This document shows positions 28,522 to 50,126 of a stretch of 64,000 bases of DNA, one piece after another. Position 1 is the stretch's first letter; every line of letters starts with the position of its first letter. The stretch comes from Deltaproteobacteria bacterium GWA2_38_16 (GTDB lineage: Bacteria; Bdellovibrionota; JACOXK01; 2-02-FULL-40-11). Below the pieces are notes generated by a model. The model did no database searches. It was not told the DNA's origin and saw nothing but the letters and a program-made list of their open reading frames with translations. The translations under genes were made by a program, and so were the position numbers. Where the stretch lies: contig MGPE01000006.1 in the NCBI GenBank assembly GCA_001797335.1, positions 215,473 to 279,472 of the forward strand, given 5' to 3'.

Positions 28522-31266
28522 ATGGAAAAACAGTTTCTTATCATACAGGGATTGCGCCAGAATAATCTTAAAAATCTAGACCTCAATATCCCTCATGGAG
28601 AGCTCACGGTTATTACCGGTCCCTCTGGATCTGGAAAATCATCCCTGGCGTTTGACACCATTTTTGCTGAAGGGCAAAGACTCTACATTGAATCCCTGTC
28701 TACCTATGCACGCCAATTTTTGGAACGCGTCCAACGCCCCAATGTTGATTTAATTAAAAATATTTCTCCCACCATTGCCATTGAACAAAAAAATTCTGTT
28801 AAAAATTCCAGATCAACCGTGGGAACGTCTACTGAAATTTATGATTATTTAAGACTTTTATTTTCAAAAATCGGAAAAATTGAATGCCCCCGCTGCACCA
28901 TTCCTATTAAAAAAGATACAGTTTCTTCTATGGTTGATTTTGTGCTGAAGCATTTATCAGGACAAAAAATTCTTATTTTAGCCCCTTTTTCTTTAGCCCA
29001 GATTCAAAAAGAACCTTTCATTAAATACCTTTTAAAAAAGGGATTCACTCGCATACTTTTAAATAATAAAATTTGTGATTTAAATTCTGAAATTTCTATT
29101 GATAAAGAAAAAGAATTGCTCATCGTTCTAGATCGCCTCATCGTCAAACCTGACATTAAAGCAGAACTGACCGATTCTTTAGAAATTACATATCAAGAAG
29201 CCAAAGGGCGCGCCTCAATTCAAGATGAAAAAGGGGCCTTCCATAAATTTTCTCTAAGACTTTGCTGCAGCCAATGTGATTTAAAATTTCCAGACATTCT
29301 TCCTTCTTTTTTCTCCTTTAATAACCCTTATGGGGCTTGTTCTCACTGTCACGGTTTTGGAAATAATCTATTAATTGATGAAGAGCTTGTGGTCCCCAAT
29401 AACACCGTTAGCCTTGAGCAGGGCGCTATTGATCCTTGGACAAAACCTTCTTTAAAAAGATGGCACAAGCGCCTCCTAGAATTTTGCCAAAAAGAAAAAA
29501 TTTCTATTGAAACCCCTTATAAAGATTTGGATTCCAAAGATCGAGAGAAGATCTTTAAAGGCACAAAAGGATTTAAAGGCGTTTTAGGATTTTTTAAACA
29601 GCTTGAAAAAAAGAAATATAAAATGTCGGTTCGGGTCTTTTTAAGTCGCTATAAAAGTGCTTTCACTTGCCCCATCTGCCAAGGAAAACGCTTAAGAGAA
29701 GAAACTAATTTTGTTAAAGTTCAGGGAAAAACCATTGCAGAACTTTTGTCTTTAACCGTTGAAAAATCTAAAAAATTTTTTGACTCTCTTGCGCTTTCTT
29801 CTTACGAGGCCGAAGTTTCAAAAGAAATTTTAAGACAATTAATAGCCCGCCTTACTTTTTTAAGCAAAGTAGGATTAGATTATCTAACGTTGGATCGCCT
29901 AACCAAAACCCTTTCAGGGGGAGAGGCTCAACGCATTAATGTCGCCAATCAATTAGGCGCAGCACTCATGAAAACAACCTATGTTCTTGATGAGCCTAGC
30001 ATTGGCCTTCATCCAAGAGACAATAAGCGGCTTGTCTCTCTTTTAAAAAATCTACGAGATTTGGGAAATACCGTCATTGTAGTTGAACATGAGCCCGATA
30101 TTATTCGAAACGCAGATTATATTATAGAACTAGGCCCGAAAGGAGGAGAAGCCGGCGGAGAACTCATGTATCAAGGAAGTTTTTCTCAGTTTTTAAAACA
30201 AAATACCCTTACCTCTTCTTATCTCACTCAAAAAGAAGCCATTGCCATTCCCAATCAACGACGAAAAGGCAAGGGACACACCTTAAAACTATTGGGGGTT
30301 ACTCACCACAACTTAAAATCGGTCGATCTTATTCTTCCCCTTCATCAGTTTGTCTGCATTACCGGCGTTTCTGGATCTGGAAAAAGTTCCTTAATTCATG
30401 ACACGCTTTACAATGCCTTGGCCAGAATTTTAAAAATTGAAAATAATAAAATTGGCCGATTTAAAACAATTTCTGGTTTTAATCACATTCAAAGCCTTCG
30501 TCTTTTGGATCAAGAACCCATTGGAAAAAGCTCACGATCTAATCCCATTACTTATATGAAAGGGTATGATGAAATTCGAAAACTCTTTGCTCAAATTCCA
30601 GAAAGTAAAAAAATGGGCCTTATGGCTTCTTCTTTTTCTTTTAATATGAAAGGGGGACGGTGCGAACATTGCGAAGGAAGTGGATTTCAAAAATTAGAAA
30701 TGCATTTTTTAGCAGACCTTTATTTAACCTGCGACTATTGCATCGGGAAAAAATTTAAAAAAGAAATTTTAAGCATCAAATTCAAAAATAAAAATATTGA
30801 TGACGTCTTATCCTTAACGATTGATGAAGCTTCTACATTCTTTATTACCCATCCTCACCTTCGACAAAAACTTAAAATTTTACAAGAAGTTGGGTTAGGA
30901 TATTTAAAACTGGGACAACCTGCGCCCACTCTTTCTGGTGGAGAAGCTCAACGTCTTAAAATTGCCAAAGAACTTTCTTTTGAAACCAAAGAGGGTCTTT
31001 ATATTTTAGATGAACCCACAACAGGGCTTCATCCAGATGATATTAAAAAATTACTCAGTGTTTTAAATCGTCTGGTTGATCAAGGAAATACAGTTGTTGT
31101 CATCGAACACAATTTAGATGTCATTAAAACCGCAGATCACATTATTGACCTTGGCCCTGAAGGGGGCGATCGAGGGGGTCAAATCATTGCCACAGGCACT
31201 CCCGAAGAACTTATCCACATCCCCCATTCTCACACCGGCCAATATCTTAAAAAGGTACTTACTTAA
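28522..31266 (+). CDS. uvrA: Excinuclease ABC subunit A
   Basis: DNA damage sensor of nucleotide excision repair, 914 aa (family about 940). Two ABC modules: Walker A sites GPSGSGKSS (near residue 32) and GVSGSGKSS (near 618), each with an LSGGEAQR signature and a DEP(S/T) Walker B. Zinc-finger cysteine pairs are present (CPRC, CSQC/CSHC, CPIC, CEHC/CDYC). A complete, standard gene. Confidence 0.98.
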   Translation: MEKQFLIIQGLRQNNLKNLDLNIPHGELTVITGPSGSGKSSLAFDTIFAEGQRLYIESLSTYARQFLERVQRPNVDLIKNISPTIAIEQKNSVKNSRSTVGTSTEIYDYLRLLFSKIGKIECPRCTIPIKKDTVSSMVDFVLKHLSGQKILILAPFSLAQIQKEPFIKYLLKKGFTRILLNNKICDLNSEISIDKEKELLIVLDRLIVKPDIKAELTDSLEITYQEAKGRASIQDEKGAFHKFSLRLCCSQCDLKFPDILPSFFSFNNPYGACSHCHGFGNNLLIDEELVVPNNTVSLEQGAIDPWTKPSLKRWHKRLLEFCQKEKISIETPYKDLDSKDREKIFKGTKGFKGVLGFFKQLEKKKYKMSVRVFLSRYKSAFTCPICQGKRLREETNFVKVQGKTIAELLSLTVEKSKKFFDSLALSSYEAEVSKEILRQLIARLTFLSKVGLDYLTLDRLTKTLSGGEAQRINVANQLGAALMKTTYVLDEPSIGLHPRDNKRLVSLLKNLRDLGNTVIVVEHEPDIIRNADYIIELGPKGGEAGGELMYQGSFSQFLKQNTLTSSYLTQKEAIAIPNQRRKGKGHTLKLLGVTHHNLKSVDLILPLHQFVCITGVSGSGKSSLIHDTLYNALARILKIENNKIGRFKTISGFNHIQSLRLLDQEPIGKSSRSNPITYMKGYDEIRKLFAQIPESKKMGLMASSFSFNMKGGRCEHCEGSGFQKLEMHFLADLYLTCDYCIGKKFKKEILSIKFKNKNIDDVLSLTIDEASTFFITHPHLRQKLKILQEVGLGYLKLGQPAPTLSGGEAQRLKIAKELSFETKEGLYILDEPTTGLHPDDIKKLLSVLNRLVDQGNTVVVIEHNLDVIKTADHIIDLGPEGGDRGGQIIATGTPEELIHIPHSHTGQYLKKVLT

Positions 31267-31760
31267 TCGCATTCATCCTTAGCTTTTTTATTTTTATTAA
31301 TGATAAATTGCTTTTCTTTTGTTTTTTCCTTCACAATGATTTCTATTGCTTCTTTCTGCCTTATTTCCCCTTCTTCAAGAGCAAAGTAAAGCTCTTGCTC
31401 CAATTGCCTGCGGGTAGCTTTCACTAGCACATGCTCTGGCCAAAGATTAATATCAGAGTTGCTTCCACCGATAGAGAGGGGAATAAAATGATCTATCGTA
31501 TATCTGTGCCTGCAATCAGACGGAATCTTGTATTCATCATAAATTTTTTCCCGCCTATCCGAACTGACATTACGTTGACAATAGGGGATATTTTCTTGAT
31601 ACTTATACGTTACAAAATCAGGATCCTGTATTGTGCAAAGATCTCCCTGTGTCCAGTTCGGATCAGGAATTAAAGGAAACGAAAGAGCGAGGTTTGTACT
31701 TAAGAAAAAACCCACAACAAGAGAGGCTCTTACGACACTAACGACTATCTTATTTTTCAT
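31263..31760 (-). CDS. Secreted HNH-type endonuclease-like protein
   Basis: 165 aa with a Sec signal (about residues 1-28, ending LALSFP). The centre, CRHRYTIDHFIPLSIGGSN, followed by INLWPEH, fits the HNH/beta-beta-alpha-metal nuclease pattern (DH as the metal/base pair, N and H downstream). Export suggests attack on extracellular DNA or nutrient release. AGGAGG precedes the ATG. The stop overlaps uvrA's stop convergently by 4 nt. Confidence 0.7.
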   Translation of the reverse strand: MKNKIVVSVVRASLVVGFFLSTNLALSFPLIPDPNWTQGDLCTIQDPDFVTYKYQENIPYCQRNVSSDRREKIYDEYKIPSDCRHRYTIDHFIPLSIGGSNSDINLWPEHVLVKATRRQLEQELYFALEEGEIRQKEAIEIIVKEKTKEKQFIINKNKKAKDECD

Positions 31761-31801
31761 TACTCCTCCTTAGTAAGCCATTTAGGGTGACTTGTAGAAA
31801 C

Positions 31802-31963
31802 GCCGAACCATATTTTCGGCCTATAATTAAGAGTTACTCTATAACCCTAATATAATTAGAATTAACCTGTCAAGAATTTGGATTAAATTTTAGGAAAGAT
31901 AAGATTTAAGCAATTCTTAAAAGCAGATAACTGGATTCCGTCGGAATGGACGGTTTTCCGTCC
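31802..31963. other. 265-nt intergenic region with several dyads
   Basis: Between the HNH gene and the DUF4258 gene are four short dyads: GCCGAA/TTCGGC (31802-31820), AGAGTTACTCT (31830-31840), ATTCC/GGAAT (31935-31947) and GGACGGTTTTCCGTCC (31948-31963). The last is followed by GCATTTTT and could be a weak terminator, or with its neighbour an activator site upstream of the sigma-54-like promoter. No gene is seen in the gap. Confidence 0.4.
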
Positions 31964-47051: not shown

Positions 47052-47081
47052 TTGACAAATCTATCCTTAATCCGCTATTCT
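47052..47081 (+). promoter_or_regulatory. Promoter of the MltD-like gene, near-leaderless
   Basis: TTGACA (47052-47057), 18-nt spacer, TATTCT (47076-47081). The ATG is at 47091, so the leader should be only a few nucleotides. Confidence 0.6.
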
Positions 47082-47090
47082 AGAAGGTAC

Positions 47091-48197
47091 ATGAAGAACC
47101 ATTATCGTGTAGTGGCTCTTTTTTTATTTTTGATCGCCCTAGGTGGATGTGCAACTAGTGGAAATTACAAAGAAAAAGACCAATCCTTAGCTGAAGATAC
47201 CTTTAAACCTCTCTCTTCTCCAGAATTTAATATCCCTATTGTCATTAATAAAGAGGTAGAAGCCTTTATACGCTACTTTCAAACCTCCAACCGTCGTCAT
47301 TTTGTCCGCTGGCTTGAAAGATCTGAGCGCTATATCCCCATGATGCAAGAAATTTTAGCTCAAAACAATTTACCCACTGATCTTGTCTACATGGCGATGA
47401 TTGAAAGCGGCTTTAATACATCGGCATATTCCAGGGCAAGAGCTGTTGGCCCCTGGCAATTTATTAAGGGTACAGCTTCCAGATATGGGCTTAAAATCAA
47501 TTGGTGGGTAGATGAAAGAAGAGATCCTACTAAGTCAACCCTGGCTGCTTCTATGTATTTAAAAGATCTGTATGACATGTTTGATTCATGGTTATTAGCG
47601 GCCGCAGGATATAATGCGGGAGAAAATAAAATTAAAAGAGCTATTGTAAAACACAACACTGAAGATTTTTGGGAAATGACCAATCATCGCTATTTAAGAA
47701 AAGAAACCAAACAATACATTCCAAAGCTCATTGCCGCTGCACTGATCGCTAAAAACCCTCCCAAGTATGGGTTTACTAATTTAGAGTATCAAGACCCTTT
47801 AGAGTTTGAAACCATTACAGTTACCGAGCCCACAGATTTAAGAACACTAGCTCAAATGTTAGTCTCCCCTTATGAAGATATAAAGATATTAAATCCAGAA
47901 CTTTTAAGATGGTGTACTCCACCGGACACTCCTGAATATACCCTTCGTATCCCTAAGGGGAAAAAAGAAGTGTTTGAGGCAAAGGCTCTTGAAGGAGAGC
48001 CCCAATCTAAGGAAAAAACAATTTTCCATTCCCATAAAATTAAACAAGGGGATACGTTATATCAGATTGCTCGTACGTATGGAATTCAGGTAAGCCCCAT
48101 TATTGAGATGAATAAATTAAAATCTACGCACACGCTTCGTCCCGGCCAATTTTTGATTATTCCTGTAAAGGCTAAATCTTCCGACCAACAAACATAG
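47091..48197 (+). CDS. mltD: Lytic transglycosylase lipoprotein with LysM (MltD-like)
   Basis: 368 aa from the ATG at 47091. Lipobox LGGC follows the signal (MKNHYRVVALFLFLIALGGC). SLT domain about 95-250: MIESGFN with the catalytic Glu, AVGPWQFI, ASMYLKDLYD and AAAGYNAGENKI. A single LysM is near the C-terminus (IKQGDTLYQIARTYGI...LRPGQFLIIP) to hold peptidoglycan. E. coli MltD has two LysM; one here is common. Cleaves glycan strands in the periplasm. Confidence 0.93.
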   Translation: MKNHYRVVALFLFLIALGGCATSGNYKEKDQSLAEDTFKPLSSPEFNIPIVINKEVEAFIRYFQTSNRRHFVRWLERSERYIPMMQEILAQNNLPTDLVYMAMIESGFNTSAYSRARAVGPWQFIKGTASRYGLKINWWVDERRDPTKSTLAASMYLKDLYDMFDSWLLAAAGYNAGENKIKRAIVKHNTEDFWEMTNHRYLRKETKQYIPKLIAAALIAKNPPKYGFTNLEYQDPLEFETITVTEPTDLRTLAQMLVSPYEDIKILNPELLRWCTPPDTPEYTLRIPKGKKEVFEAKALEGEPQSKEKTIFHSHKIKQGDTLYQIARTYGIQVSPIIEMNKLKSTHTLRPGQFLIIPVKAKSSDQQT

Positions 48198-48222
48198 ATT
48201 CTTCGCTTTGCTCAGAATGACT
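48196..48222. repeat. Small hairpin repeat, copy A
   Basis: ATTCT, TC, GC, TTT, GC, TC, AGAAT: an outer 5-bp arm, a TC/TC bulge, then an inner stem. A second copy near 58568 has the same outer frame but a longer inner stem (GGGCC/GGCCC), so the structure rather than the sequence is conserved. REP-like. Confidence 0.55.
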
Positions 48223-48223
48223 T

Positions 48224-48448
48224 AAAAAAAATAGGAGCGGTGATAGCGGGGAAAAAATCACACCTAACATCTACTACTACTCCCGTCTTTTTTTTACTCC
48301 TTAAGACAGGGTAACTATCGTGATACTTTCCTCTCTATTGATATTAGACTTTTTTCACCTTTTAAGTCCCTTTGGACCTTTGATTTGCTGTTAGGCACAA
48401 GTCCTAAACAGACATCTTATCAGGAAAAAAGCCCGTTATCATCGTCCT
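48224..48448 (-). ncRNA. Candidate structured non-coding RNA of about 215 nt
   Basis: The gap between mltD and the convergent subtilase has a minus-strand promoter (TTGCTT 48484-48479, 17 nt, TATAAT 48461-48456), an expected start near 48448, a long closing stem joining both ends (GGTGATAGCGGG at 48239-48250 with CCCGTTATCATC at 48432-48443), and an eight-T run (48231-48224) after the stem. Inside are hairpins CTGTT-AGG/CCTAAACAG (48388-48411), GTCC/GGAC (48366-48377) and CCCGTCTT/AAGACAGGG (48282-48311). Two closing-stem pairs are wobbles only on the plus strand and mismatches on the minus, which argues the other way. Not a known family by eye; 6S RNA or a CsrA-binding RNA are alternatives. 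Confidence 0.5.
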
Positions 48449-48455
48449 ACTTAGA

Positions 48456-48484
48456 ATTATATTACGGAAGCGTACTATAAGCAA
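48456..48484 (-). promoter_or_regulatory. Promoter of the candidate ncRNA
   Basis: TTGCTT (48484-48479) and a perfect TATAAT (48461-48456), spacing 17. The -35 box is inside the end of the subtilase gene. The start site would fall at the foot of the closing stem. Confidence 0.5.
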
Positions 48485-50126
48485 ATTTATCAATATCAAA
48501 TCCATATCGATTGACTTGATCATCTGATTCAAAATGAATGGTGGCCGTATCCCCTCGGATAATAAACGTCCAAAAAGATTTCATCTTTCCATCCATTTGA
48601 TCTGCGGCATTGCCTTCACTATCTGTAACTTTCACAAAATCATATCCTTCTTCCGTATCAAATTTCTTAAAGTGAATTTTAAGATAGGTGGCACCTTCTT
48701 GATGGATTTCCCAACTTTTTTGGGTATTGGGAAGATAATCATGAGGTGTTGATAACTTATAACTGACGTTTTTCCACCCTCCGGGATCTTTGGGTGTTTT
48801 CTTGGGAGGAATAATATCACACAACACATTATAGGCATTCACTCTTCCCTGAGCGATAATTTTTCGTCGGAAAGAAAGAATTTCATCTGAAGTTTCCACC
48901 AAACGCGTTCTAACTTCTTCAGGTGTTAAATCAGGTTCCAAAGATAGAAGAAGCGCACAGACACCACTGACATGAGGAGTGGCCATCGAAGTTCCGCTAT
49001 AAGATTGATATTCATTCTTGAGCACGGAACTTAAAATATTATCCCCAGGGGCTGCTACATGGACCGTCTTTACGCCAAAATTAGAAAATTTAGCCAGTTG
49101 ATCTTTATTATTGGTCGCTGCCACTGAAATAACATTAGAAATATCATAGCTTGAAGGATAGTGTTTAGACGTATCGTTATTTTCGCTATCATTTCCTGCT
49201 GCAGCTGCAAAAACCACATTTTTGTTATTAGCGGCTGCAATGGCATCGGCCATGGTTTGAGAAAATCCTCCTCCTCCCCAGCTATTATTTAACACACGCG
49301 CTCCCATTTGGACGGCATAGTCAATAGCTGAAACCGCATCGGCCAATTCTCCAGAGCCAAATGAATTTAAAAATTTTACAGCCATAAGCCTTACTCCGGG
49401 AGCTACGCCGATAACTCCAATACTGTTATTTCCGACGGCCGCAATGGTACCTGACACATGGGTCCCATGGCCGTTATCATCTTTAGGGTCATTGTTTTTT
49501 TCTGAAAAATTCCACCCATAAATATCATCAATAAAACCATTGCCATCATCATCTAGTTTATTGTCGGCAATTTCATTGGGATTCATCCACATGTTTTGGG
49601 TAATATCTTGATGGGTATAATCAATCCCTGTATCAATAACAGCCACAATAACATTTTTATCTCCTGTCGTTTTCTCCCAGGCTTCTAGAGCATCAATATC
49701 AGCATCTACAATCCCTTCCTGACCGGTAGAATCTTTTTGCCCTGTATTATATAAACTCCACTCTTCGTTAAACAAAGGATCATTAGGGAGGGGAGGTTCT
49801 CCATCGACAGTGTAGATAAAATTGGGCTCTGCATATTCAACCATAGGGTGAGACCGATAATAAGTCAGAGCTTCTGTCACATCGGCTTTAGAAATCCGAA
49901 TATGTTCTAGGCCAAAGGAAGTGTGATACCGTTTCATCACCTGTGCCCCTGTAAGTTCATAAAGATTGGCTTTTGCTAGAGGGTAGGCAAGCATCGCCTC
50001 ACTTTTAAATTTTACTAAAATTTCACCGGGTTTATAGTAAACACCGTGATGAGTTTTTATTTTGGCAACCGCGGTACTACCAAAAACGACAAGACTACAC
50101 ACAAGGAATGCAAGTGCTCTTCCCAT
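48462..50126 (-). CDS. Secreted subtilisin-family protease with CUB-like C-terminal domain
   Basis: 554 aa with a signal peptide (about 1-21) and an inhibitor-like prodomain (30-110). The catalytic triad is D165 (VIDTG), H220 (NGHGTHVSGT) and S380 (YSGTSMATPH). A calcium-loop-like DDDGNGFIDD lies at 192-201. The last 90 residues (about 465-554: YDFVKVTDSEG, ATIHFESDDQVNRYGFDI) fit a CUB-type beta-sandwich. Exported and probably active outside the cell. Confidence 0.9.
   Translation of the reverse strand: MGRALAFLVCSLVVFGSTAVAKIKTHHGVYYKPGEILVKFKSEAMLAYPLAKANLYELTGAQVMKRYHTSFGLEHIRISKADVTEALTYYRSHPMVEYAEPNFIYTVDGEPPLPNDPLFNEEWSLYNTGQKDSTGQEGIVDADIDALEAWEKTTGDKNVIVAVIDTGIDYTHQDITQNMWMNPNEIADNKLDDDGNGFIDDIYGWNFSEKNNDPKDDNGHGTHVSGTIAAVGNNSIGVIGVAPGVRLMAVKFLNSFGSGELADAVSAIDYAVQMGARVLNNSWGGGGFSQTMADAIAAANNKNVVFAAAAGNDSENNDTSKHYPSSYDISNVISVAATNNKDQLAKFSNFGVKTVHVAAPGDNILSSVLKNEYQSYSGTSMATPHVSGVCALLLSLEPDLTPEEVRTRLVETSDEILSFRRKIIAQGRVNAYNVLCDIIPPKKTPKDPGGWKNVSYKLSTPHDYLPNTQKSWEIHQEGATYLKIHFKKFDTEEGYDFVKVTDSEGNAADQMDGKMKSFWTFIIRGDTATIHFESDDQVNRYGFDIDKFAYSTLP

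Follow-up and report, generated by a model that had tools for sequence, protein, structure and literature searches.

The stretch of DNA analysed here, a window of 64,000 nucleotides, comes from an uncultured groundwater-type bacterium whose 2.0-Mb assembly comprises 19 contigs. Two convergent genes, recognized as open reading frames and by synteny in four genomes, flank the region of interest: one encodes an MltD-like LysM transglycosylase (47052..48197, plus strand), and the other a subtilisin-like protease, or subtilase (48462..50126, minus strand). Comparison of four such loci identifies a structured non-coding RNA gene of ~225 nt between them, which runs on the minus strand from about 48448 to 48224 (RNA position i = 48449 - i), downstream of the subtilase gene.

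A gap of 7 nt separates the -10 box TATAAT (48456..48461, minus strand), which is invariant in the four genomes, from the conserved 5' end. At 17-nt spacing is a -35-like TTGCTT (48479..48484, minus strand), which agrees weakly with the consensus and is unlisted by the promoter scanner. In two relatives (G001 and G005), TTGTAT at a spacing of 16 takes its place, and in G003 a TGG immediately 5' of TATAAT makes an extended -10. At the other end, a terminator run of eight T residues (48224..48231, minus strand) follows the closing stem of the RNA, and a T-run is found behind this stem in all four genomes. The minus-strand alignment thus reads as an invariant TATAAT, AGGACG....TAACGNGCTTTTTTCC, a variable middle, YTTTTTTCCYCGCT...ACCGCYC, and the T-run; the first Y of the alignment motif is A in the source genome (G000). 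Because the invariant TATAAT precedes AGGACG, at the conserved 5' end, and the T-run trails the conserved 3' end, we assign the RNA to the minus strand, from which it is presumably transcribed. An earlier sequence-only reading had noted the TATAAT with 17-nt spacing and the eight-T run, both of which are present on the minus strand. It had left the orientation open on the basis of the G-U pattern of the stem, an argument that the comparative data supersede.

Homologues were identified in four species-level genomes (G000, G001, G003 and G005), two of them close relatives, that represent three genera of one family. The relatives are metagenome-assembled genomes labelled "Deltaproteobacteria", one of them from groundwater. 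In a DNA search of 97 relatives, two family members gave matches to both ends of the element and none to its middle; in each, the matches adjoin an mltD-like gene. The homologue in the third relative, G001, was taken from the sequence at its mltD locus. Across the four loci, the ends of the RNA are conserved and the middle is fast-changing. The order mltD > < RNA < subtilase < MeaB is common to all four genomes, with G003 having additional genes in the interval from subtilase to MeaB. The gene fis, and tadC past MeaB, are present where contigs extend, and pabB is present in G000 and G005. The MltD and MeaB proteins are 60-84% identical among the four genomes. In the family member G002, neither the RNA nor the subtilase adjoins mltD.

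A covariance model of the RNA, R1, scores 171-235 bits in the four genomes (173.9 bits for the element in the window) and at most 28 bits elsewhere among 290 genomes of the phylum, in which it finds no further copy. Among the genomes searched, the gene is thus confined to this family, in which four of six genomes carry it. The best of the weak R1 matches in other families (<=28 bits) were inspected and carry neither the U6CC nor the stem motifs described below. A pattern scan of genome contigs returned the same three relatives and one match in Spirochaetia, which was set aside, as it has no TATAAT and no R1 score. The RNA is absent from all 28 viral contigs bearing the short motif. In the source genome, the element is present in a single copy.

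No family in Rfam 15 covers the element, and the only matches in the window at or above the gathering score are a tRNA and a purine riboswitch. A permissive Rfam search gave two sub-threshold snoRNA matches over the element (E 0.78 and 1.1), which we regard as chance. The original description of an undescribed structured RNA is therefore borne out, with promoter, stem, and terminator conserved in four genomes, and the homologues make up a new, conserved family of RNAs that is not in Rfam 15 and is specific to one lineage. The further claim that it is not a cis riboswitch agrees with the arrangement of the locus: the T-run faces the 3' end of the convergent mltD gene in all four genomes, and the RNA is not in the 5' leader of a gene. 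A small peptide was also considered and rejected; a frame that opens at RNA position 7 does not persist in G003 and is short in G005, and no reading frame is conserved across the four homologues.

Membership of the Csr family had been suggested as well, and here the search was negative, in that the Rfam models for CsrB/C, RsmY/Z, and PrrB do not match the element and CsrA (PF02599) is absent from all six family genomes. Hfq (PF17209) and TROVE (PF05731) are likewise absent from all six, and controls were positive for each of the three proteins. As in CsrB/RsmZ sponges, one hairpin loop of this RNA has a GGA, in three genomes; unlike those sponges, each RNA has only 2-6 GGA in a family in which CsrA was not found. 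Because CsrA, TROVE, and Hfq were not found in the family, we reject CsrB-type, Y-RNA, and Hfq-dependent readings, which removes the commonest modes of sRNA action.

In comparison with dinucleotide shuffles, the element folds unusually well on the plus strand (z = -3.96, 0 of 200 shuffles as good) and on the minus strand (z = -2.51, 2 of 200). Alifold and pair counts define a closing stem, P1, whose 5' strand AGGACGAUGAUAACGGG (48432..48448, minus strand) pairs with a 3' strand at 48235..48250 (minus strand). P1 spans 17 positions with 13 standard pairs. In the four genomes, 98% of its cells are paired, and three of the 13 pairs are altered on both sides with pairing retained. When the strands are shifted by 1-3 columns, no compensatory changes are seen, and 12 of 500 shuffles attain the observed values. 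Because only four sequences are available, the covariation in P1 is supportive rather than overwhelming. The closing stem of about 12 bp and the internal hairpins seen in the single sequence are present, and the covariation proposed as a check is found at three pairs of P1.

Just within P1, the sequence U6CC occurs twice per RNA in all four genomes, once on each strand. The 5' pyrimidine tract, C-UUUUUU-C (48424..48431, minus strand), is invariant and is the predicted Watson-Crick strand of a second helix, P2. Its partner is the purine tract G-AAAAAA-G (48349..48356, minus strand), and exactly one exact G-A6-G lies between the two U6CC tracts in each of the four RNAs. The U6-A6 pairing is predicted in all four with p 0.6-1.0. 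The 3' pyrimidine tract, A/C-UUUUUU-C (48251..48258, minus strand), abuts P1 and is a candidate either for a Hoogsteen third strand or for a strand of another helix, P3. The base 5' of U6CC is C, except for an A at the 3' tract of G000. With the interior shuffled, GA6G is expected by chance in 1-4% of cases per sequence, the four sequences being related and hence not independent. Because P2 never varies, it gives no covariation support, and its pairing is a prediction of the folding model. In searches with a triple-motif pattern, whose gap limits miss the G003 copy, exact C-U6-C copies occur only in this RNA; other matches begin with T7 and are about as frequent as those of a backwards control.

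The 3' U6CC is invariant, and its register in the four genomes fits one C.G-C triple, adjacent to the stem, and six U.A-U triples. An eighth triple would be C.G-C in three genomes and A.G-C in the source genome. The candidate third strand would run parallel, and no spare base separates it from the stem. Two U-rich strands joined to a stem and an A tract in U.A-U register, the arrangement that characterizes ENE-type elements, are found in all four genomes. Direct attachment to P1 is also described for the Hoogsteen strand of MALAT1 (PMC11411715), and ENE triplexes require U-rich loops with flanking G-C pairs (PMC12501189). The RNA shares with the MALAT1 and PAN ENEs two U-rich strands that flank a stem, one A-rich tract, G-C pairs beside the U tracts, and a third strand attached straight to P1. 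However, those ENEs are eukaryotic and viral stability elements, whereas this RNA is bacterial and short, has an internal A tract instead of a 3' tail, offers its third strand an alternative Watson-Crick partner, and has no sequence relation to them.

That alternative partner is an upstream GGAAAG-like stretch, with which the 3' U6 would form P3. There is about an even chance that the tracts form an ordinary three-way junction of P1, P2, and P3, with no triple helix and with the 3' U6CC paired solely to these purines. In G000 and G005, most positions of P3 are predicted to pair with p 0.76-0.99, and the distal part of this helix varies between genomes yet pairs. However, the 3' U6CC is invariant while its predicted partner changes, which favours an extra constraint on the tract, and half of the 3' tract is partnerless in G003. 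Energetically, the P1+P2 fold lies 7.3 kcal/mol above the unconstrained minimum in the source genome and 0.3-1.3 kcal/mol above it in the other three. If the 3' tract is to be available for a triplex, an extra 1.8-7.4 kcal/mol must be paid, with the energy of the triplex itself not counted. On these models, a triple helix, either constant or as one of two states, is a serious possibility that we rate somewhat below even.

Two states had been proposed earlier on other grounds, namely that TGTTAGG can pair with an upstream or a downstream partner. This element and both partners lie on the plus strand and occur in this genome only; because TGTTAGG is not conserved, that form of the switch is unsupported. 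The conserved alternatives are instead the pairing of A6 with either U6 and of the 3' U6 with GGAAAG.

We consider it probable that the locus is a stand-alone sRNA gene with a P1/P2 core, in which the 3' U6CC serves as a triplex strand, as part of P3, or as both in alternation, and whose product acts in trans via a protein partner. A dedicated minus-strand promoter of the sigma-70 type would drive the RNA, whose closing stem and U-run would themselves end the transcript. It could then form a sealed rod in which P1 is stacked on P2, made by the 5' U6 and A6, with two variable arms extending from this core. The 3' U6CC would lie as a U.A-U third strand on P2, pair with GGAAAG in P3, or alternate between the two. 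From such an arrangement of core and 3' tract it would follow that the 3' end is shielded and that the RNA offers a rigid or two-state platform, and the fast-changing arms may bear the partner contacts. Its most likely mode of function is action in trans through a putative protein partner rather than Hfq- or CsrA-dependent regulation. The U6/A6/U6 core is its most testable novel element. To our knowledge, such triples are known in bacteria only within riboswitches, and with this RNA it can be tested whether ENE-like triple helices are also used by stand-alone RNAs of bacteria.

The distribution of 6S RNA makes a second question testable, namely what takes over where 6S RNA is lost. A 6S match was obtained in 33 of 39 genomes searched with Rfam, 28 of them above the cut-off. 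Neither Rfam nor a clade-specific model, based on 12 6S sequences of the same phylum, detects 6S in the four genomes that carry the new RNA. The reverse holds for G002, the sole family member with 6S (118.6 bits), in which the new RNA is absent; in G004 (71% complete), neither was detected. The possibility, raised earlier, that the element is itself a 6S RNA does not hold: it has no match to Rfam 6S (RF00013) at E<=5, and with filters off its best overlap with the clade-specific model scores 5.8 bits, a background level, where the 6S of G002 scores 118.6. The new RNA is like 6S in size, in the closing stem that joins its ends, in being a stand-alone gene, and in the complementary occurrence of the two within the family. 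Unlike 6S, it has the U6/A6/U6 tracts and not the conserved motifs of the aligned 6S RNAs.

In many actinobacteria, Ms1 is an RNA polymerase-binding RNA that stands in for 6S (PMC4191392, PMC9130861). The new RNA is, like Ms1, a structured RNA in a 6S-less lineage, and it might be an unrelated polymerase-binding replacement of the same kind. We know of no sequence relation between Ms1 and the new RNA. Exclusive occurrence and the Ms1 precedent speak for replacement, as does a tree of MltD and MeaB in which G002 is sister to G003 with support 99. The exclusion is thus not one split, and one event per RNA is insufficient to explain it. However, the informative genomes number five, no 6S-like score was obtained, and both RNAs probably coexisted in the family ancestor. 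Given so small a sample, in which the G003 and G005 genomes are incomplete, we regard a role in replacing 6S as a weak lead only, and an improbable one. Slightly less probable still is the fuller proposal of a stand-alone RNA built around an ENE/MALAT1-like U.A-U major-groove triplex, possibly switching with a third arm, that substitutes for the lost 6S.

The 6S gene of G002 (C54:2832-3010) has a gene for an S41-type peptidase on one side and, on the other, a response-regulator gene followed by birA. The G000 genome differs in that nadC separates the response regulator from birA, with no 6S found there, and 6S is absent from the corresponding BirA locus in the other genomes examined. With no Hfq or CsrA in any of the six family genomes (G000-G005) and 6S in one, the known global RNA regulators look much reduced in this family.

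Instead of being a gene in its own right, the element could also belong to the subtilase mRNA, as its structured 3' UTR and terminator, since it lies on the same strand and begins 14 nt past the subtilase stop codon, and G002 has neither of the two beside mltD. We judge this unlikely: the TATAAT right behind the subtilase gene is invariant, a conserved 225-nt fold is unneeded for ordinary terminators, and in G006, from the sister family, mltD adjoins the subtilase with just a short simple terminator hairpin between them. A mobile or repeat-derived element, such as an inverted repeat or an integron attC-like site, is very improbable, because despite imperfect inverted repeats at the ends and the resemblance of ACCTAAC and GTTAGGC to attC boxes, it has a single genomic copy, one and the same locus in all relatives, and attC-like boxes that are not conserved.

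Immediately past the terminator of the RNA, at 48196-48222, is a dispersed repeat, ATTCTTCGCTTTGCTCAGAATGAC and variants, that occurs in 28 further genomic places. At least one copy forms part of the reading frame of a gene, CoaX (...PEILRYAQNDKSK...), and CoaX of G003 holds another copy, reminiscent of Rickettsia palindromic elements. Elsewhere in the window, the purine riboswitch aptamer (31751-31848, minus strand) scores 53.7 bits in Rfam and extends across the start codon of an ORF at 31263-31760 (minus strand). The product of this ORF is small and probably secreted, and one of its motifs (RHRYTIDHFIPLSIGGSNSDINLWPEH) resembles that of HNH nucleases; purine riboswitches do not usually accompany such a gene.
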